From Cellulomonas sp. URHD0024 (lineage in GTDB: Bacteria > Actinomycetota > Actinomycetes > Actinomycetales > Cellulomonadaceae), in the NCBI RefSeq assembly GCF_000426185.1, contig NZ_AUEW01000004.1, positions 1 to 64,000 of the forward strand: 64,000 bases of DNA, in the 5' to 3' direction. Position numbers and translations under genes: made by a program. The stretch's first letter is position 1, and each line of letters opens with the position of its first letter. This document shows positions 9,379 through 49,825 of this stretch, one piece after another. Under the pieces are notes generated by a model that saw only the letters and a list, made by a program, of their open reading frames with translations, ran no database searches and was not told the DNA's origin.

Positions 9379-11384
9379 GGCGTGACCAGGCGGATCACGT
9401 GGGCGGCGCGTACCACCGGGTCCAGACGGATGAACGCGGGCGACGACCACTCGTAGGCGTCGTCGGACAGGACGTCGTGCGCGACGACCGGCCTCCCGTG
9501 CTCGAGGCCGAGCGCGCCGAGGTCGAGCTCGACCCACCCCTCCCGAGCGTTGGCGGTGTCGAGGTTCACGATCACGAGGATCGTGTCGGCCCGTCCGGTC
9601 GCGGAGTGCTCGGCGGACAGGTGCCTCGAGAACGCCACGAGCGCGTCGTCGGAGGTCGGGTGGATGTGCAGGTTCCGCAGCTGTCGCAGCGCCGGGTGGT
9701 TGCGCCGGATCTCGTTGAGGCGCCCGAGGAGCAGGTTGATGCCGATCTTGTCCGCGACGCCCCAGACGCGCGGCTTGAACTCGTACTTCTCGTTGTCGAT
9801 CTGCTCCTCGACGCCGGGCCGGGGGACGTTCTCGACGAGCTCGTAGCCCGAGTAGATGCCCCACGTCGGTGCCCCGAGCGCCGCGAGCACAGCACGCACC
9901 GCGAAGCCTCGCACGCCTGTGGCCTGCAGGTACGGCGGCAGGATGTCGTGCGTGGTGGGCCAGAAGCTCGGCCGCAGCCACGAACCCTGCTCGCCCGAGA
10001 CCTCGGCGAGGTACTCGGTCAGCTCGGGCTTCGTGTTGCGCCACGTGAAGTAGGTGTACGACTGGTGGAACCCGATCTTGGCGAGCGTGAGCATCATGGC
10101 CGGTCGCGTGAACGCCTCGGACAGGAAGATGACCTCGGGGTGGTCCGTCCGGACCGAGGCCAGGATCCGCTCCCAGAAGTCCAGGGGCTTGGTGTGCGGG
10201 TTGTCGACGCGGAACAGCGTCACGCCGTGGTCGATCCACACCTGCAGGACCCGGCGGATCTCGCGGTAGATGCCCTCGGGGTCGTTGTCGAAGTTCAGCG
10301 GGTAGATGTCCTGGTACTTCTTCGGCGGGTTCTCGGCGTACGCGATGGTGCCGTCCGCCCGCGTGGTGAACCACTCGGGGTGCGTGGTGACCCAGGGGTG
10401 GTCCGGCGAGCACTGCAGCGCGACGTCGAGGGCGACCTCCATGCCGAGCGCCCGGGCATCGGCGACGAACGCGTCGAAGTCGTCGAACGTGCCCAGCGAC
10501 GGCTCGATCGCGTCGTGGCCGCCGTCCTTCGACCCGATCGCGTACGGCGAGCCGGGGTCACCGGGCTCGGCGTCGAGCGAGTTGTTGCGCCCCTTGCGGA
10601 ACGTGGTCCCGATGGGGTGCACGGGCGTCAGGTAGACCACGTCGAACCCCATCCCGGCGATCCGCGGCAGGTCGAGCGCGGCGGTGCGCAGGGTGCCGGA
10701 CGTCCAGGTGCCCGTCTCGTAGTCGTAGGTCGCGCCCGCAGAGCGCGGGAAGAGCTCGTACCAGGAACCCGCCAGCGCGAGCGGCCGGTCGACGACGAGC
10801 GGGTACGACGGCGACGCGGTCACCGACTCCCGGATCGGGTGCTCGGCGAGTGCGGCCCGCACGGCCGGGGACAAGCCAGCGGCCAGCCGGTCGGCCGGCG
10901 GCCGGGTGTGGTCGCGCAGGCCGACGATCGCGTCCAGGAGAACGGCCTGGATGCCCTTGGTGCCCTTGCGCCTGCTCGCCTTCTCGAGGAGCAGCGCCCC
11001 CTCGGCGAGCATGAGCTCGACGTCGACACCCGCCTCGACCTTGATCGACGCGTCGTGGGACCACGTGCCGTAAGGGTCCGACCAGCCCTCGACGCGGAAT
11101 GTCCAGCGGCCGGTGCTCGTCGGGACGACGCGTGCCTCGAACCGGTCGAGACCAGGTGCGATGTCCACCATCCGGGCGCTCGCGCGGTCGACGCCGGACG
11201 GGTCGGTGAGCACCGCCGTCGCACCGACCGCATCATGCCCTTCGCGGAACACGGTCGCCCGGATAGGGACGGCCTCGCCGACGACAGCCTTGGCCGGGAA
11301 CCGCCCAGCCTCGGCGACGGGGGAGACCTCCACGACGGGGATGCGCCCGACGGTGCTGCTTACCGGGCCGGGGGTAGTCGTCAC
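9375..11384 (-). CDS. glgE: alpha-1,4-glucan:maltose-1-phosphate maltosyltransferase GlgE
   Basis: Extends alpha-1,4-glucan with maltosyl units from maltose 1-phosphate. It has 669 aa. The N-terminal beta-sandwich starts [11 protein letters not shown], as in known GlgE proteins. The GH13 domain has the nucleophile region [19 protein letters not shown] and the acid/base region [14 protein letters not shown]. It is first in the glgE-treS-mak operon. GTG 11384 was chosen over a longer frame because a TAGGTT hexamer (11392-11397 on the minus strand) lies exactly 7 nt upstream, indicating a leaderless message, and because family similarity begins just after it. Confidence 0.95.
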
Positions 11385-43575: not shown

Positions 43576-43603
43576 CGTCGGGATGACGGAGAGGTGGTCG
43601 AGC

Positions 43604-44269
43604 ATGTCTGAGGTACTGACGTGGTCCGTCGTGACCGACCAGGTCGACGACCGGCACTGGCGGGTCATCGGCGGAAGGCTTCGGGCGACGTTCGGGGCCG
43701 ACGACTTCGCCGGTGCCGCCGCGTTCGTCGCCCGCATCGCGCAGGCCGCGGACGCGGCCGACCACCACCCGGACGTGCTGCTGCGCTGGGGTGAGGTCGC
43801 GGTGACCACGGTGAGCCACGACGCGGGCGGCCTGACGCAGCGGGACGTGGACCTCGCCCGGACGATCAGTGCGCTCGCCGACGAGCTGAGCCTGACCGGG
43901 AAGCCGCCGAAGTCGGAGATCGTCGAGATCGCGATCGACGCGATCGACATCCCGGGCGTACGGCCGTTCTGGCGGGCGGTCCTGGCGTACGACGAACGAA
44001 AGGTCGGCAGCAGCAGCGAGCTCGCGGACCCGGCCGGCGTAGGGCCGACGTTCTGGTTCCAGCAGATGGACGAGCCGCGCCCGCAGCGCAACCGGATCCA
44101 TCTCGACGTCCTGGTGCCGCACGACGAGGCCCAGGCGCGGGTCACGGCGGCGATCGCGGCCGGCGGGCACCTGCTCGACGACGGTGCCGCACCGGCGTTC
44201 TGGGTTCTCGCCGACAAGGAGGGCAACGAGGCGTGCGTCTGCACCTGGCAGGGGCGCTCGAACAGCTGA
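43604..44269 (+). CDS. pterin-4a-carbinolamine dehydratase-like domain joined to a VOC-like domain
   Basis: 221 aa. Residues about 1-95 match 4a-hydroxytetrahydrobiopterin dehydratase: ADHHPDVLLRW contains the catalytic His pair (about 54-55), and VSHDAGGLTQRDVDLA the third His and the family C-terminus. The stand-alone enzyme is about 100 aa; the rest here (SEIVEIAIDAIDIPGVRPFW, then QRNRIHLDVLVPHDEAQARV) looks like a glyoxalase/VOC half-domain. The fusion is known in actinobacteria without a proven role. ATG 43604 is preferred for its GAGAGGTGG; ATG 43583 is possible. Confidence 0.8.
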   Translation: MSEVLTWSVVTDQVDDRHWRVIGGRLRATFGADDFAGAAAFVARIAQAADAADHHPDVLLRWGEVAVTTVSHDAGGLTQRDVDLARTISALADELSLTGKPPKSEIVEIAIDAIDIPGVRPFWRAVLAYDERKVGSSSELADPAGVGPTFWFQQMDEPRPQRNRIHLDVLVPHDEAQARVTAAIAAGGHLLDDGAAPAFWVLADKEGNEACVCTWQGRSNS

Positions 44270-44275
44270 CGAGGG

Positions 44276-44944
44276 CTACTCGGCGGGGAGGGTGAACGTC
44301 CAGCCCTGCGCCAGCCGTTCCTCGACGACGGCCGTGACCGCGGCGAGCGTCCCGGTGCGGTGGTCGCCGCCACCGTCGTGGGCGAGGACCAGCTCGCCGG
44401 GGCGCATGGCCGCGCGCAGGTACGCCGTCAGGGTGGGGACGTCCTGCGTCGACCAGTCGTCGATGGTGTTGAGCACGCCGAGCGGTCGCATGCCGAGCGA
44501 TGCCGCGACCTCGGCGGAGACGCCCCAGCTGCCGTTGGGTGCGCGGTAGTAGGGGACCTGCGCGTCGGGCGCGGCGGACCTGATGATCGCCAGGTTCTCG
44601 ACCAGGTCGGCGCGGACGCGCTCGGCCGGCCAGTCTCCGAGGTCGTCGTGCCGCGTCGTGTGGTTCCCGAGCGGGTGGCCGTCGCGCACGATGCGTCGAA
44701 GGACGGCCGCCCCGCCGGGCGCGGTGACCTGCCGCCCGATCACGCAGAACACTGCCCGGATGTCGTGCGCCCGCAGAAAGTCCAGCAGCGCCTCGGTCGT
44801 CGCGCCGTTGGGGCCGTCGTCGAAGGTCAGCGCGCAGACGAGCCCGGTTCCGGCAGCGCGGGTCACGTGGTCCGTGTCCGTCGCGCCACCTGGGCGGCCG
44901 CGAGCTCCGGTGCCCGAGGCCAGAGGTCGTCCTCGCCGTGCCAC
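44276..44944 (-). CDS. polysaccharide deacetylase (NodB domain) family protein
   Basis: 222 aa. Carbohydrate esterase 4 fold: LTFDDGPNG contains the catalytic base and metal Asp, GNHTTRHDDL the two metal-binding His, YYRAPNGSWG motif 3, and LVLAHDGGGD the late His motif. Likely N-deacetylates a cell-wall or surface amino sugar. No clear signal peptide is present, unusual for this family. GTG 44944 is supported by TAGAGT 6 nt upstream; an internal GTG at 44866 would give a 26-residue shorter form. Confidence 0.84.
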   Translation of the reverse strand: MARRGRPLASGTGARGRPGGATDTDHVTRAAGTGLVCALTFDDGPNGATTEALLDFLRAHDIRAVFCVIGRQVTAPGGAAVLRRIVRDGHPLGNHTTRHDDLGDWPAERVRADLVENLAIIRSAAPDAQVPYYRAPNGSWGVSAEVAASLGMRPLGVLNTIDDWSTQDVPTLTAYLRAAMRPGELVLAHDGGGDHRTGTLAAVTAVVEERLAQGWTFTLPAE

Positions 44945-44950
44945 CAGGGA

Positions 44951-44956
44951 ACTCTA
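44951..44956 (-). promoter_or_regulatory. -10 element, leaderless promoter of the polysaccharide deacetylase gene
   Basis: TAGAGT on the minus strand, 6 nt before the GTG at 44944. Confidence 0.45.
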
Positions 44957-44974
44957 GCCAAGGAGGTCGGTGAG

Positions 44975-45142
44975 GTGACGACCGTGGCGACCATGCCCCA
45001 CGGCAATCGAACGACGCGCCGCGACTCGCTTACTGACTTGTCAGTAAGCATTGACCTCTATGTCCCTGTTCGGCACACTCTCGGGATGCTCGTAGTGGGG
45101 CATCTGCGGTCAACGGCGACGCACAGGGGGCGGTTGAGGTGA
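44975..45142 (+). CDS. possible 55-aa small protein ahead of the MauE-like gene
   Basis: A GTG 7 nt after a perfect AAGGAGGT opens a 55-codon frame that ends in a GTGA overlap with the MauE-like gene. These two signals favour real, coupled translation. Against it, the middle codons are AT-rich and rare for this genome, and the frame contains a palindromic operator-like site, which suggests promoter DNA. The product is basic, has no cysteine, no clear membrane segment and no family I recognise. Confidence 0.3.
   Translation: MTTVATMPHGNRTTRRDSLTDLSVSIDLYVPVRHTLGMLVVGHLRSTATHRGRLR
45029..45048. promoter_or_regulatory. 20-bp perfect palindrome, TetR-type operator candidate
   Basis: CTTACTGAC, two bases, GTCAGTAAG. 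Size and form are those of TetR/AcrR-family operators. It lies 90 bp upstream of the MauE-like gene, in an AT-richer patch that also holds TTGACC (45051-45056), a possible -35. No TetR gene is in the window, so the regulator would act from elsewhere. Confidence 0.5.
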
Positions 45143-45672
45143 CCTATTTTCGGCTCGGTGCCGGGATGGTGCTGATCGGCGTCTTCGCCGTCGCGTTCCT
45201 CGGCAAGGCGCGATCGCGCGCGGCACGCAGGGACGCCGTCGACGCCGCCGCGCATCTCGCCCCGCATCTGCCGCCGGCGCCCGCCGTGGCCCTCGCCCTG
45301 CTGGGGGAGTCGATCGTGGTCGTCGCACTGGCGGCGGGCCTCGTTCTCGGCTCGGGAACCATCGTCCGCGTCGGGGGTGGTGTCGCCGTCGTCGAGCTCG
45401 TCGTCTTCTCGATCGCGCTGCTCGGTGCGATCCGCCGACGCGACGCCGCGCCGTGCCACTGCCTCGGGGCCTCGGACGCAGCGCCGGCTCCCCGGCACGT
45501 CGCGCGCAACGTCGGGCTGATCGTGGCGGCCCTCGTCGTGGCGCTCCCCGCTTCGGCACCGGTCGAGGTGGCGGGTGTGCTCCTGGCCCTCGTCGTGTCC
45601 GTCGTCGTCGTGGGCGCGATCGTCCTGCTCGACGACCTGAGCGACCTCCTGCGTCCGGCGGGCGCGCTCTGA
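45139..45672 (+). CDS. MauE/DoxX-like redox-associated membrane protein
   Basis: 177 aa, four to five hydrophobic segments. The motif CHCLG (Cys106, Cys108) after the third segment corresponds to the CxCFG site of MauE, the membrane protein needed with MauD for disulfide formation in methylamine dehydrogenase. It also resembles DoxX-like quinone-linked proteins. Expected role: passing electrons between the membrane pool and the exported thiol protein encoded next. Start GTG at 45139. First clear gene of the 45139-49345 operon. Confidence 0.82.
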   Translation: MTYFRLGAGMVLIGVFAVAFLGKARSRAARRDAVDAAAHLAPHLPPAPAVALALLGESIVVVALAAGLVLGSGTIVRVGGGVAVVELVVFSIALLGAIRRRDAAPCHCLGASDAAPAPRHVARNVGLIVAALVVALPASAPVEVAGVLLALVVSVVVVGAIVLLDDLSDLLRPAGAL

Positions 45673-45718
45673 GCTCGAACCCCTCAACCCCTCGAACCCC
45701 GCAACGAAGGAGTTCCCC

Positions 45719-46213
45719 GTGCCCTACCTGGTCGCCGCCGTCGTGGTTCTGACAGCTCTCGTGCTCGTCAATCTCGCCCTCACCGGTGCCATCGTGCGAC
45801 GCCTGCGCGCCGACGAACGCCGGGCTCTCGGGCCTGATCTGCCGCGTGCTCTGCTCGGCGTCGACGTCTCCGACAAGGTCGCCCCGTCCGGGCGGGTGCT
45901 CGTCGCCTTCTCGTCGACGACGTGCGAGGGCTGCGTGCGGGACGCGCCGGACCTCGTCGCCCGGGTCCCCGAGCTCGCGGACGCCGGCGTGAGCGTGGTC
46001 CCGGTGCTGCTGGACAGCGGACCCGATTCCCAGCACATAGGTCGGACGCTCGCCGGTGCCGGAGCCGTCGTGCACCAGTCCTCGATGGACGACTGGTTCG
46101 CGGCGTTCGGCGTGCCGGGGACGCCCACCTACGTCCTGGTCGAGGACGGTCGGACCGTCGCTGCCGACCGGACCCTGCAGGGTTGTCTCGCGGCGTCGGT
46201 GCCGGCGCGGTGA
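45719..46213 (+). CDS. membrane-anchored thioredoxin-like protein (TlpA/MauD type)
   Basis: 164 aa. One N-terminal transmembrane helix (residues about 3-26) anchors a thioredoxin-like domain facing outward. FSSTTCEGC gives the CxxC active site (Cys69, Cys72), and GVPGTPTYVLVEDG contains the cis-Pro loop. A third Cys lies near the C-terminus (LQGCLA). Paired with the MauE-like protein it should oxidise or isomerise thiols outside the membrane. The GTG start has AAGGAG upstream. It overlaps the ABC gene by GTGA. Confidence 0.82.
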   Translation: MPYLVAAVVVLTALVLVNLALTGAIVRRLRADERRALGPDLPRALLGVDVSDKVAPSGRVLVAFSSTTCEGCVRDAPDLVARVPELADAGVSVVPVLLDSGPDSQHIGRTLAGAGAVVHQSSMDDWFAAFGVPGTPTYVLVEDGRTVAADRTLQGCLAASVPAR

Positions 46214-48048
46214 CGCCCGACCGACCGGCTCGGCGGTTGACGGGCGCCGCGTCGAGCATCGCGTTCCACCTGCGCGCCGCGCCGGTCCTCGTCGGCGTGC
46301 GCCTGGCCACGGCCGTCCTGGCTGGGTTCGCGCCGGTCGTCGGGGCGTGGACCCTGGCGCGCCTGGTCGACGCGCTGACGGATGGTGCGGACGAGCGCAA
46401 CGCGGTGCTGGCCGGGGTCGGCGTGGCCACCGTTGCCGCCGCGGCGGCGGTGATCCAGCACGTGAGCCGGTACCTCGACTCCGAGGTGGCGCGGCGCGTC
46501 GGTCTGCGCCTGCAGTCGGACCTCTTCGCTGCGGTGTCCCGTGACCCCGGGCTGAGCCGGCTGGAGGACCCGCGCTTCCACGACCGGCTCCAGCTGTCGC
46601 GGGTCGCGGCACAGACCGTCCCGCAGATCTTCACCCCGGCCCTGCTGCAGTCCATCCAGGCCCTCGTCGCCCTGATCGGCTTCTTCGTCGCGATGGTCGT
46701 CGTCTTCCCGGCGGCCGCAGTGGTCGCGGCCGTGGCGATCGCCCCGAGCGTATGGGCGCAGCGACGGCTGAGCAGGCTCCGGTCGGCGTCCCTCGCCATC
46801 CGCAGCCCGCACGAACGACGACTCCTCTTCTACGCGACGACGCTGACCGACCTCCGGGTGGCCAAGGAGGTCCGGCTGTTCGACCTGGGCGAGCACCTGC
46901 GTGGCAGGCTCGTCGACGAGGTCGGTGCGATCCAGGAGACGGAGCGACGGGTCGACCGGCGTACGGCCGTCGTCGACTCGGGGCTGGCCGTCCTCGCCGC
47001 CGCAGTCCTCGGCGGGCTGCTCGTGGGCACTGTCCTGCTGGTGCTGGACGGCCACGGGACCGTCGGCCAGGTGACGCTCCTCGTGGCGTCGCTGGCCGGG
47101 ATGCAGGCGGCTGCAGCCGGACTCGTGTCCCAGGCCGGAGCGGTCGACGAGGGAGCGATGCTGCTGGACCACTACCGTGCGGTGGTCGAGGGCGGCGCGC
47201 CCGTCCAGCCGGCGTCCGGTGCCGTCGAAGGCGCCGTCGAGGCGCTGCAGGACTCCGTCGTGTTCCACGACGTCTGGTTCCGGTACGCCGACGACCAGCC
47301 GTGGGTCCTTCGAGGCGTCGACCTCGTCCTGCGCCGCGGCGAGTGCACGGCGATCGTCGGCGTGAACGGCGCAGGCAAGTCGACCATCGCCAAGCTCCTG
47401 TGCCGGCTGTACGAGCCGGACCGGGGCCGGATCACCTGGGACGGCACAGACATCGCGACGGTGGACGTGCGTGCGCTGCGCGAGCGGATGTCGGCGGTCT
47501 TCCAGGACTTCGTGTGCTGGGAGCTGTCGGCGCACGAGAACGTCGCGTTCGGCTCGCTCGCTGAGGCCCGCCGACGGCCTGAGTCGGTCCACGAGGCGGC
47601 GCGAAGCGCCGGGGTCGAGGACCTGCTCGCCGGGCTGCCCGCGGGCTACGACACGATCCTGTCTCGGTCGTTCTCCGGCGAGCCGGTCGGCGACCAGGAC
47701 GCCACCACCGGAGTGGTTCTGTCGGGAGGGCAGTGGCAGCGCGTGGCCGCCGCGCGGGCCTTCCTGCGGACGTCGAGCGACGTGCTGGTGCTCGACGAGC
47801 CGTCGTCCGGGCTCGACCCCGTCGCGGAGGCCGACCTGCTGTCGTCGCTGGTGGACGCACGCCGGCACGGCACGTGCCTCGTCATATCGCACCGGGTTCG
47901 CGCCGTGCGGGGAGCCGACCAGGTGGTCGTGCTGGACGACGGCGCCGTCATCGAACGGGGGACGCACGCCGAGCTCCAGGATGCCGGTGGCTCGTACGCG
48001 AGGTGGTTGGACGTGCAGGCCGACGCGCTGCTGGGGGGGACCCGATGA
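46210..48048 (+). CDS. ABC exporter, fused membrane and ATPase domains
   Basis: 612 aa. A six-helix exporter-type membrane domain (residues about 15-330) is followed by an ATPase domain with Walker A GVNGAGKSTI, signature LSGGQWQRVA, and Walker B LVLDEPSSGLD. It is a half-transporter that must dimerise. There is no N-terminal C39 peptidase, unlike many bacteriocin exporters, so any leader cleavage needs another enzyme; an S26 peptidase is encoded two genes on. It overlaps its neighbours by 4 nt on both sides, a strong sign of joint function. Confidence 0.9.
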   Translation: MTPDRPARRLTGAASSIAFHLRAAPVLVGVRLATAVLAGFAPVVGAWTLARLVDALTDGADERNAVLAGVGVATVAAAAAVIQHVSRYLDSEVARRVGLRLQSDLFAAVSRDPGLSRLEDPRFHDRLQLSRVAAQTVPQIFTPALLQSIQALVALIGFFVAMVVVFPAAAVVAAVAIAPSVWAQRRLSRLRSASLAIRSPHERRLLFYATTLTDLRVAKEVRLFDLGEHLRGRLVDEVGAIQETERRVDRRTAVVDSGLAVLAAAVLGGLLVGTVLLVLDGHGTVGQVTLLVASLAGMQAAAAGLVSQAGAVDEGAMLLDHYRAVVEGGAPVQPASGAVEGAVEALQDSVVFHDVWFRYADDQPWVLRGVDLVLRRGECTAIVGVNGAGKSTIAKLLCRLYEPDRGRITWDGTDIATVDVRALRERMSAVFQDFVCWELSAHENVAFGSLAEARRRPESVHEAARSAGVEDLLAGLPAGYDTILSRSFSGEPVGDQDATTGVVLSGGQWQRVAAARAFLRTSSDVLVLDEPSSGLDPVAEADLLSSLVDARRHGTCLVISHRVRAVRGADQVVVLDDGAVIERGTHAELQDAGGSYARWLDVQADALLGGTR

Positions 48049-48875
48049 CGATCGAGGTGGGACTGCTCGGACCGATGGTTGCCGTGCACGCCGGCGTGCC
48101 CGTGGATCTCGGCAGCACGTCCCGCCGGGTCGTCCTCGCCGCGCTCCTCATGGCGGACGGCAGGGTCGTCGCCACGGACGAGCTCGTCGACATGATCTGG
48201 CCCTCGGACCCTCCCCGAACCGCGCTGTCCAAGCTCCAGGGGCATGTCTGCGCCCTGCGCAAGGCGCTGCGGGCGGCCGGCGTCCCGGACCCGACGCGAT
48301 ACGTCGTGACCACGGCACCGGGCTACCTCGTTCCGCGTGGTGCCATGCAGACCGACCTGGCCGCGTTCGTCGAGGTCGTCGACGGGGCGCGCTCGAGTGC
48401 GGGAGCCGGTCGCCTGGACGAGGCTGCCGAGCGGTACGGGCGGGCGCTCGACATCGTCCGTGGGCCTGCCCTGGCCGACCTGGGCGCCGCGCGGACCCTG
48501 CTCGCGGCAGACATGCTGACCGAACAGGTACTGGCCGTCGTCGAGGCCAAGGCCGAGATCGACGTGCAGCGGGGGCGCGCAGCGGACGCCCTCGAGATCG
48601 CGACGCGGGCGCTGCGCGCACACCCCTTCCGCGACCGCCTCCACGAGCTGTCGATCCACGCCCTCGTCGAGCTCGGTCGGCCCACGGACGCCATCCGGTC
48701 GTACCGGCGATGTCGCGACCTCTATCGCGCGGAGCTCGGGATCGAGCCCAGCGAAGCCGTGCGTCGCCTCGTCGATGCGATCTTGAGCGAGACGGTCATG
48801 TCTCGTGCTGGTGCCGTCAGGGCCGCTGTCGTGACGCCGCGCCCGGCGCATCCGCGAACGGAGCTGCGCCTGTGA
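48045..48875 (+). CDS. SARP-type transcriptional activator (OmpR-like DNA-binding + BTAD)
   Basis: 276 aa. The N-terminal winged helix (about residues 10-95; RRVVLAALLMADGRVVATDELVDMIWP, KLQGHVCALRKAL, PGYLV) is followed by a bacterial transcriptional activation domain (about 100-245; YGRALDIVRGPALADL, RDRLHELSIHALVELGRPTDAIRSYRRCRDLY). This is the minimal layout of SARP regulators such as DnrI and ActII-ORF4, which activate peptide and secondary-metabolite clusters by binding heptamers spaced 11 bp. Exactly such repeats lie at 49655-49683. It overlaps both neighbouring genes. Confidence 0.88.
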   Translation: MTIEVGLLGPMVAVHAGVPVDLGSTSRRVVLAALLMADGRVVATDELVDMIWPSDPPRTALSKLQGHVCALRKALRAAGVPDPTRYVVTTAPGYLVPRGAMQTDLAAFVEVVDGARSSAGAGRLDEAAERYGRALDIVRGPALADLGAARTLLAADMLTEQVLAVVEAKAEIDVQRGRAADALEIATRALRAHPFRDRLHELSIHALVELGRPTDAIRSYRRCRDLYRAELGIEPSEAVRRLVDAILSETVMSRAGAVRAAVVTPRPAHPRTELRL

Positions 48876-49345
48876 TCGTCGTGCTGCTCGCGGCGCTGGT
48901 CGTCGGGGCGACGGTCCTGCTCCTGCGGCACGCGCTCACGGTCGTCGCGGTGCGCGGTCCGAGCATGGAACCGACCCTCGAGCACGGCGCGCTCGTCCTC
49001 GTCCGCCGCAGAGGCAGTGTGCCCGGTGCTGGCGACATCGTCGTCCTGCACCCCGTGCCCTCCGAGGCGGGCTTCGGTTCGGGGCTGATCATCAAGCGGG
49101 TCGCGGCGACCGCGGGCGCGCCGGTGCCGCAGGACGTTGCCGCCGCCGCGGGTATGGTCCCCGGCGCCCCCGTGCCGCCCGGCCGGTTCGTCGTCCTGGG
49201 CGACAACGCCGCCGCCAGCGCCGACTCGCGCACATGGGGTCTGGCGCACGACGAGCTCGTCTACGGCCGGGTCATCGCCCGGCTGTCCGGCACCCGGGAC
49301 GTGGAGCTCCGGCGCCGCCCGCCGGACCCTTCGGCTGCTGTGTGA
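48872..49345 (+). CDS. minimal S26-family signal peptidase
   Basis: 157 aa, smaller than housekeeping LepB. One N-terminal transmembrane helix (residues about 2-20) is followed by the catalytic Ser31 in VRGPSMEPTLEHG, Lys75 in LIIKRVAATAG and the conserved box VVLGDNAAASADSRTWG. Type I signal peptidases cut after Ala-x-Ala outside the membrane. Being the last gene of the exporter operon, it is probably dedicated to the product of this locus; the cysteine-rich peptide encoded at 49424-49591 has a suitable Ala-Asp-Ala site. Confidence 0.87.
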   Translation: MIVVLLAALVVGATVLLLRHALTVVAVRGPSMEPTLEHGALVLVRRRGSVPGAGDIVVLHPVPSEAGFGSGLIIKRVAATAGAPVPQDVAAAAGMVPGAPVPPGRFVVLGDNAAASADSRTWGLAHDELVYGRVIARLSGTRDVELRRRPPDPSAAV

Positions 49346-49365
49346 GCGTTCGGGCCGAGATGCCC

Positions 49366-49417
49366 GCCCGGGCAACGACGACGGGCGCGACTGGCCGCCC
49401 GTCGTCGTCGCCCGGGC
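49366..49417. terminator. bidirectional terminator between the operon and the peptide gene
   Basis: A 22-bp stem (49366-49387 with 49396-49417) with one mismatch and an 8-nt loop sits 20 bp after the signal peptidase stop and 6 bp after the stop of the opposing small gene. Neither side has a T tract. Confidence 0.75.
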
Positions 49418-49423
49418 TGTTCG

Positions 49424-49591
49424 TCACGTCTGGACGTAGTAGCAGTCCGTGCCGGGCCGGCCGGGGGTAATGCAGCAGTACTCCTTGTAGGGGCCACGCA
49501 TTCCGACGTACCAACAGTTGGCCGCGTCGGCCTCACGCGTGGGTAGCAGCGCCGTGAGGGCGCGGTCGGCGAGAGCGCGAATCTTCGTCAC
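49424..49591 (-). CDS. small cysteine-rich precursor peptide (55 aa)
   Basis: A GTG at 49591, with AAGGAGA six nt upstream, opens 55 codons ending at TGA 49424. The first 23 residues, MTKIRALADRALTALL then PTREADA, form an amphipathic helix and finish in Ala-Asp-Ala, a type I signal peptidase-like site; it is not a normal Sec signal, since the hydrophobic core is too short. The predicted 32-residue core has four cysteines (26, 39, 40, 50; one Cys-Cys pair), one Trp and five Tyr, within segments ANCWYVG, KEYCC and TDCYYVQT. The adjacent operon supplies exporter, peptidase, thiol oxidation and regulator. No known family is recognised; a bacteriocin or signal is inferred, not shown. Confidence 0.72.
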   Translation of the reverse strand: MTKIRALADRALTALLPTREADAANCWYVGMRGPYKEYCCITPGRPGTDCYYVQT

Positions 49592-49654
49592 GATGTCTCC
49601 TTCGTCTCGGGGGGTCCGGTCTTCGAGCCCCCTGAAGGCATGCTCCGTGGCGTC

Positions 49655-49683
49655 GCTGACGGTCTGCTGACGCGTCGCTCACG
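49655..49683 (-). promoter_or_regulatory. three phased heptamers, SARP-type operator of the peptide gene
   Basis: On the minus strand CGTGAGC (49677-49683), CGTCAGC (49666-49672) and CGTCAGC (49655-49661) follow each other at exactly 11 bp, with spacers GACG and AGAC. This is the arrangement known for SARP activators, which bind next to a weak -10. The block ends 63 bp before the GTG of the peptide gene. No good -10 was found, as is usual for activator-dependent promoters. ilvD starts 155 bp away on the other side and has its own promoter. Confidence 0.6.
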
Positions 49684-49825
49684 ATCCCCGGCGCCCTGAG
49701 ACGGCCGGCCAGGTCTGTTCCCACGGCTACGTCGACCGACGGCCGGTGGGACACGGCGAGGGCGGACCGTCGCGACTGCACAGTCCGCAGGGTGACCCGC
49801 GAGCGGAGCACCTGAACGGCAGTCA

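Follow-up and report, generated by a model that had tools for sequence, protein, structure and literature searches.

A widespread actinomycete gene set that may oxidise, trim and export small disulfide-bonded peptides

We analysed a 64,000-nt stretch of Cellulomonas sp. URHD0024 DNA (contig NZ_AUEW01000004.1; hereafter the window), in which a compact operon for a MauE/DoxX-type membrane protein, a thioredoxin-like protein, an ATP-binding cassette (ABC) exporter, a SARP-type activator and a small S26 peptidase faces the gene of a 55-amino acid (aa) precursor peptide. Judging from its homologues, the operon belongs to a family of gene sets that is widespread in actinomycetes and that we call uncharacterised on the strength of our literature search and the lack of any Pfam or NCBIfam model. 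We consider it fairly probable that its products make a small disulfide-bonded peptide that is oxidised and cut at the cytoplasmic face of the membrane and then exported. The five genes, their overlaps and their motifs lie where a first-pass annotation, drawn by a model from the bare sequence, had placed them, and the 55-codon frame it had noted proved to be a real gene, with a ribosome site and a match to the leader profile described below. The features of the locus are the following:

45139–45672, plus strand: MauE/DoxX-type membrane protein, 177 aa, GTG start; Pfam MauE E=2.3e-12; CHCLG motif between transmembrane (TM) helices 3 and 4 of five predicted
45719–46213, plus strand: thioredoxin-like membrane-anchored protein, 164 aa, GTG start; CEGC motif; best Pfam match AhpC-TSA, sub-threshold at E=4.2e-4
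46210–48048, plus strand: ABC exporter, 612 aa, permease-ATPase fusion, GTG start; ABC_tran E=6.7e-27, ABC_membrane E=1.8e-7
48045–48875, plus strand: SARP-type activator, 276 aa, ATG start; BTAD E=2e-30, Trans_reg_C E=1.5e-6
48872–49345, plus strand: small S26 signal-peptidase-like enzyme, 157 aa, GTG start, Ser-Lys dyad; Peptidase_S26 E=2.2e-18
49346–49423, no strand assigned: hairpin between the convergent genes, likely a shared terminator; −56.8 kcal/mol, z=−5.6 against 200 shuffles
49424–49591, minus strand: precursor peptide gene, 55 aa, composed of the leader MTKIRALADRALTALLPTREADA and a 32-residue core with 4 Cys; AAGGAG ribosome site; leader-profile match
49650–49686, no strand assigned: two 15-nt direct repeats (13/15 alike), 22 nt start to start; candidate SARP operator
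44886–49760, no strand assigned: no blastn match across this stretch in G005, the nearest relative (search against L132)

Genes overlap by 4 nt at three junctions (46210–46213, 48045–48048 and 48872–48875), and 46 nt separate the MauE and thioredoxin genes. A Pfam scan detected no C39 peptidase domain in the 612-aa exporter, which supports the first-pass proposal that the S26 enzyme occupies the place held by C39 in other systems. The class-defining enzymes of lanthipeptides and of the YcaO and radical SAM classes were likewise not found by Pfam in the five operon proteins, the peptide or three neighbouring products. SARPs recognise direct repeats with a spacing of 11 or 22 nt. The repeats in the window lie upstream of the precursor gene, and their equal was found in 0 of 300 shuffles at spacing 22 and in 4 of 300 at any spacing between 15 and 60.

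Exporter family and linked genes

The exporter was the best marker of the family. When 394 genomes of the class were searched with it, three candidates being scored per genome, 29 genomes yielded 49 matches in all at E<1e-115 (the window's own included), and the next match appeared only at 2e-85. A first set of 45 loci was assembled from 40 of the 48 other close exporter places, four Streptomyces plasmid loci with public annotation, and the window. For a second set, an exporter alignment was run against named genomes and the best 80 of at least 583 relatives were kept; all 80 are actinomycetes by title, from Cellulosimicrobium, Streptomyces, Nonomuraea, Actinomadura, Nocardiopsis, Lentzea, Micromonospora, Salinispora, Nocardia, Amycolatopsis, Microbispora and other genera. 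Five second-set loci overlap the first set and were removed for precursor counts, except in the precursor counts out of 80 given below, and retained for counts of gene presence and charge. Several second-set loci are short or abut a contig edge (for example L176, L181, L220 and L226), so that genes missing from them are no proof of absence. The alignments used comprised 17 of 45 exporters, 30 of 40 S26 proteins, 29 of 45 thioredoxin-like proteins, 41 of 46 precursors (profile A4) and the 29 rows of alignment A3.

Homologues of the exporter, at 39–50% identity, have thioredoxin-like and S26 genes as neighbours across many genera of actinomycetes, often together with a MauE gene. All four of MauE, thioredoxin-like protein, ABC exporter and S26 occurred together in 38/45 first-set loci; in the second set a thioredoxin-like gene was present in 75/80 loci, S26 in 71/80, and both in 69/80. 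The annotated plasmid loci repeat the arrangement, running from a short hypothetical protein (two in L100) through MauE/DoxX, a TlpA-like or unnamed protein that the thioredoxin profile matches, and ABC to S26. The MauE motif C.C[FL]G was found in 43/43 first-set sequences (window included) and 52/53 from the second set, and CxxC was invariant in the 29 aligned thioredoxin-like proteins, five of which, the window's not among them, match the MauD model TIGR02661. Two of the five genes assigned to the set by the first-pass annotation are less constant than it implied. MauE is often linked, and was found in only 53/80 second-set loci, some on short contigs; the SARP is present in the window and is no fixed component, with SARP/BTAD matches of at least 60 bits in 28/45 loci (window included); of the four plasmid loci, two have a SARP or BTAD gene as neighbour.

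Several loci depart from this layout. In L092, L093, L095 and L119 we observed a sub-type with a fused MauE-thioredoxin protein, no visible S26 and a precursor end APxxAxRxCxPDC; the fused protein occurs in 4/12 genomes of that genus (g144). A fusion together with S26 was found in L175 and L202, and fusion and S26 loss are therefore independent; these two loci and L182 (Lentzea and Kibdelosporangium) all have S26 and precursors ending A-G-A-C. The operons of L075, L080 and L099 each contain two genes for thioredoxin-like proteins, and in L075 and L099 the copy adjoining the exporter has lost its CxxC. In L188 and L225 (Actinomadura) very short 4-Cys precursors lie beside the exporter, and neither MauE nor thioredoxin was found in the locus. 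L089 has an exporter without an S26 gene or leader-type precursor found in the locus, and another small frame there (9955–10239, minus strand) ends in three Cys.

Precursor leader, cysteine parity and the S26 site

To describe the precursors, a leader profile was built from ten seed frames and iterated to 36, the first-set frames being filtered for at least two Cys and never for parity. It recovered 46 frames at E<0.05 in 39/45 loci, and the same 39 loci returned when each member, along with leaders at least 60% alike, was left out of the profile (weakest E=0.07, in L080). Under this leave-one-out regime the window peptide scored E=2e-6 on the scale of 7,196 candidate frames. Applied without retraining to 22,516 candidates of the second set, the profile found a frame at E<0.01 in 63/80 loci; among the non-overlapping loci the figure was 58/75. 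Homologous operons thus mostly keep the Cys-rich frame that the first-pass annotation had expected beside them, and its suggestion that such a peptide is the substrate of the maturation and export genes gains support. Across the 394 genomes, the profile matched 25/29 exporter-bearing genomes and 2/365 others, both marginally (E 4e-4 and 9e-4); the former largely hold its training sequences, and the informative figure is 2/365. It missed four exporter-bearing genomes: G713, and three whose leader is the divergent one of the S26-less type. When the L064 precursor was used to query the whole 4.47 Mb genome, only the window frame matched, weakly (E=0.03). L069 and L085 each contain three tandem precursor genes.

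The leader follows the consensus M...LxDRLLxxLVPxxxAxAxxC and is succeeded by a hypervariable Cys-rich core. In 41 precursor rows the Pro, the second Ala (−1) and the first Cys are invariant and the Ala at −3 is nearly so, and the leader ends in P-x3-A-x-A rather than in a double glycine. A conserved leader joined to a variable core and clustered maturation and export genes are traits of ribosomally synthesised and post-translationally modified peptides (RiPPs); the modification of the core would here be the disulfides suggested by the Cys parity given below. The maximal 12-residue hydropathy of the leaders has a median of 0.77, is 1.01 in the window and never reaches 2.0 in the 46, as against 2.1–2.6 for four lipoprotein-like N-termini. 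Lacking a hydrophobic h-region, the leader is no Sec signal, which makes the exporter the likely exit. Searches of Pfam and NCBIfam with 41 precursor members gave only single-member matches at E 0.03 or weaker, and profile A4 had no match among solved structures.

Cysteine counts were even in 46/46 first-set frames, in 60/61 independent second-set frames, and in 76/77 precursor clusters at 60% identity, the exception being L198. This frame (L198:5812–6318, plus strand) opens like a leader but continues into a tail that looks unrelated and contains 3 Cys, possibly a frameshift or a broken precursor. Cys is absent from all 45 leaders that could be parsed; the remaining precursor, of L067, has 10 Cys in total and allows no split into leader and core. 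This parity suggests that the cysteines of the peptide are very probably all paired as disulfides. The window core has the spacing C-x12-CC-x9-C (12, 0, 9), identical to that in the nearest locus, L150 of Cellulosimicrobium terreum. Related cores with 6 Cys (L096–L098, L069, L214 and L227) have two more than the window core, and all five 4-Cys members compared lack Cys 2 and Cys 6 of these relatives, a joint loss which suggests that these two residues pair with each other.

In 30 S26 members S31, K75, D118 and S119 are invariant and R120 nearly so. All 30 match signal peptidase I (TIGR02227) at E≤1e-3, the window protein with 68.6 bits against a cut-off of 47, and all 30 also match the nickel-superoxide dismutase (SOD) maturation protease (TIGR02754) at E≤1e-3, the window protein with 45 bits against a cut-off of 63. 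The latter protease is an S26-family enzyme that cuts a short leader in the cytoplasm; the window enzyme differs from it in its score under the cut-off, in its membrane anchor and in a peptide substrate that is not the nickel SOD. Precursors of the four S26-less loci (L092, L093, L095 and L119, the last judged from its list of open reading frames) are devoid of Ala-x-Ala. A strict rule equating the presence of S26 with that of Ala-x-Ala was rejected on account of L154, L157, L163 and L199. Seven second-set precursors fall outside the P-x-Ala-x-Ala pattern. Inspected by eye, three of them show V-x-A (L187, L201 and L206) and three show A-x-A but lack the Pro (L203, L209 and L229); the remaining one is that of L198.

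Membrane sidedness and competing accounts

We examined sidedness through the lysine and arginine residues (K/R) flanking membrane segments. In the thioredoxin-like proteins K/R after the anchor outnumber those before it in 43/45 first-set and 73/73 second-set proteins and are never reversed, the two ties being the L086 fragment and the fused L092 protein; anchors unclear near the chosen start had been dropped from the second set (2/75 thioredoxin and 16/71 S26 proteins). The S26 anchors show the same bias in 37/40 and 49/55 cases. At its true GTG start the window S26 has 0 K/R before the anchor and 2 after, whereas for the two housekeeping signal peptidases of the genome the counts are 4 before it and 0 over the ten residues that follow, with one Lys inside the called segment. 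For MauE the mean K/R count is 0.02 at the N-terminus and 5.9, 0.4, 5.3 and 0.3 in loops 1 to 4, and the CxCFG motif lies in loop 3. An AlphaFold2 (AF2) model of the fused L092 protein (mean predicted local distance difference test score, 73.8; thioredoxin part of low confidence) has five MauE helices at 2–26, 47–66, 68–94, 113–131 and 141–159, with the motif at 101–105; a structural comparison with the fused MauE model was uninformative, its matches being for the most part helical bundles or otherwise helical folds (best Z 8.3). In the fusions the CxxC domain follows helix 5, that is, on the same side as loop 3. These patterns suggest that the thioredoxin domain, the CxCFG loop of MauE and, less uniformly, the S26 active site face the cytoplasm, opposite to the housekeeping signal peptidases of this genome. 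The first-pass annotation had given MauE/MauD pairs as making disulfides outside the membrane; the charge patterns place these domains inside, and the Paracoccus MauE and MauD behave alike, with K/R of 0, 5, 0, 5, 0 in MauE and, in MauD, none before the anchor and two Arg after it. Paracoccus MauA itself has SRRSVIGKLG (L232:40409–42182, mau cluster), a start resembling signals of the twin-arginine translocation (Tat) pathway, and Tat carries folded proteins. Because of the charge bias of the enzymes, the Paracoccus pattern and the Tat-like MauA start, we think it probable that oxidation and trimming of the peptide take place at the inner membrane face and that export follows. Disulfides of methylamine dehydrogenase may, by the same token, form before export.

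In the proposed sequence of events, the leader would first guide the precursor to its membrane-bound enzymes. MauE and the thioredoxin-like protein, a pair with CxC and CxxC on the same side of the membrane, would oxidise or shuffle the Cys pairs, the electrons perhaps passing to the quinone pool by analogy with DsbB. The S26 enzyme would cut after ADA to yield a 32-residue peptide with two disulfides and a calculated monoisotopic mass of 3689.57 Da, oxidation and cutting both being placed at the cytoplasmic face, before export, by the charge bias; the ABC exporter would then eject the peptide. Through the 22-nt repeats, the SARP may activate transcription of the precursor gene. The product is likely a secreted specialised peptide, antimicrobial or signal.

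Export of a reduced precursor, with thioredoxin/MauE and S26 acting outside as the first-pass annotation had it, is a possible course of events that we nonetheless find doubtful. For type I signal peptidases and TlpA-like proteins the outer side is the normal place of action, all 30 S26 proteins match TIGR02227, and a Pro followed by Ala-x-Ala resembles the c-region of a signal peptide. Against these points stand the opposite charge bias of 116/118 thioredoxin anchors (two ties; the sets share five loci), of most S26 anchors and of the MauE loops, and the equally general match to the model of the nickel-SOD protease, a cytoplasmic enzyme. On either side of the membrane, thioredoxin and MauE could be reductive or isomerising in the manner of CcdA/ResA and correct wrong disulfides instead of forming new ones. 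Matches to ResA in 7/29 and to MauD in 5/29 thioredoxin members, the second thioredoxin-like gene of L075 and L099, where the exporter-adjoining copy lacks CxxC, and the frequent failure to find MauE fit such a role, which we judge unlikely since no operon protein has a CcdA-like domain and the near-invariant even Cys number demands net oxidation somewhere, possibly spontaneous and outside.

Binding of a metal by the cysteines instead of pairing, as in the many small Cys-rich proteins that hold zinc or copper, seems very improbable given hypervariable spacing, even counts and a linked thioredoxin and exporter. Least credible of all is a frame that arose by chance beside an operon whose true client is another product, for instance a cytochrome or a metal enzyme: the frame is indeed lineage-restricted, with no same-genus match at E≤1e-3 and no Pfam or NCBIfam family, but its leave-one-out score, the same leader beside most homologous operons and the identical Cys spacing in Cellulosimicrobium speak for a gene.

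A number of observations weigh against the favoured account of a disulfide-bonded peptide matured at the inner face and then exported. The assignment of sides derives from the positive-inside rule, which is statistical, and is the weakest link of the account. S26 anchors were reversed in five proteins (the window's as mis-started, L091 and three of the second set) and tied in four, and the 16/71 second-set S26 proteins without a clear anchor went uncounted; moreover, the C-terminus of MauE, expected inside, is net acidic (K/R 1.2, aspartate and glutamate 2.2). MauE was not found in 27/80 and S26 not in 9/80 second-set loci. A precursor at E<0.01 was lacking in 17/80 of them, and a looser look added five frames (L169, L175, L182, L202 and L222). 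The base rate of even Cys counts is about 70% rather than 50%, other small frames with at least 4 Cys in second-set loci being even in 125/179 cases. The four S26-less loci all belong to one genus (g144), and L154, L157, L163 and L199 have Ala-x-Ala precursors with no S26 in the fetched stretch, the rest of these genomes not having been searched. Finally, no immunity gene turned up, and no systematic search for one was made.

Known systems and genomic setting

The logic of a leader-directed, ABC-exported disulfide peptide is already known; the gene set, leader and apparent orientation are new as far as we found. Class II (pediocin-like) bacteriocins have a double-glycine leader, a C39 ABC exporter and an accessory thioredoxin-like protein. 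The window operon shares with them a leader peptide, a probable disulfide core, a redox helper and ABC export, but has neither the double-glycine leader nor C39 and includes a separate S26, a MauE and a SARP. With the Mau system of Paracoccus denitrificans (L232) it shares a MauE with CxC, an anchored thioredoxin-like protein (MauD in Paracoccus), the charge pattern and an adjoining gene for a Cys-rich substrate. There the substrate is MauA, an enzyme subunit of 188 residues that has a Tat-like start, in contrast to the short leader peptide of the window, and, unlike the window operon, the Mau cluster has no annotated ABC exporter or S26. A Mau enzyme system was set low as a candidate; MauA (PF02975) was absent from the genome (G000) in a search that matched the Paracoccus positive control.

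The nearest description comes from decRiPPter (PMC7794033), which reports that three candidate RiPP families of Streptomyces contain mauE and that one of them has mauD as well, the precursors having at least 8 Cys; its authors propose a role of mauE in precursor modification, without experiments on these families. The study names Streptomyces viridosporus T7A; strain NRRL 2414 of the same species appears here as L190, with a 6-Cys precursor. The terms 'S26', 'signal peptidase' and 'thioredoxin' do not occur in its main text, and its passages on the mauE families mention neither a leader motif nor Cys parity, a broad distribution or a topology. The first-pass statement of knowing no described class with this set was nearly right, the mauE candidate families of decRiPPter qualifying it; nothing closer appeared among the open-licence papers listed. 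Among the open-licence papers listed, subscription journals lying outside the search, no description was found of the gene set, the leader or the apparent orientation.

With these features, genomes can be searched for a class of actinomycete peptides that are apparently rich in disulfides and for which Pfam and NCBIfam have no model; its marks are the leader pattern P-x3-A-x-A-x2-C, an even number of Cys and hypervariable cores. Exporter, protease and redox helper come together in a single compact operon, which could be transferred to a laboratory host. Should the enzymes indeed face inwards, bacteria would have a native route to disulfide peptides made on the cytosolic side, and the picture of MauE/MauD would change. 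On the broader generalisation, that inward-facing MauE/thioredoxin and S26 form peptide factories with export afterwards, and that MauE/MauD share this orientation, the Cys-rich methylamine dehydrogenase subunit folding before export, our judgement is evenly balanced.

A search of 58 related genomes with the window peptide gave no match at E≤1e-3 in the 57 other than G000, 35 of them of the same genus; the best of the weak matches there (E=0.004) lay within a 131-aa frame, and a phage search gave none. The first-pass annotation had treated conservation of the frame among close relatives as informative. Literally, the frame is unconserved there (0/35 same-genus genomes at E≤1e-3), but we judge this uninformative because the other MauE matches lie outside the genus and the operon is missing entirely from the only relative that keeps both flanks. 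MauE was matched in 8/396 genomes of the order at E≤1e-4, and the seven other than the window's own are all outside the genus. Used as a single-protein query of genome contigs, MauE recovered no relative, an alignment of MauE sequences offered no stretch of sufficient conservation, and a plasmid search with the MauE of L062 returned only Streptomyces atratus fragments. The nearest relative by IlvD (97%), G005, keeps both flanks and has at the site a different, 6.6-kb insert that, by our reading of its open reading frames, carries sugar-transport and glycosidase genes. Eight relatives were fetched: six match on the ilvD side only, and L138 also matches part of the other flank, with other DNA between. 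The operon thus sits at a variable site, 44886–49760 of the window. Upstream, at 43583–44269 on the plus strand, a single gene fuses a pterin-4a-carbinolamine dehydratase domain to a glyoxalase-like domain.

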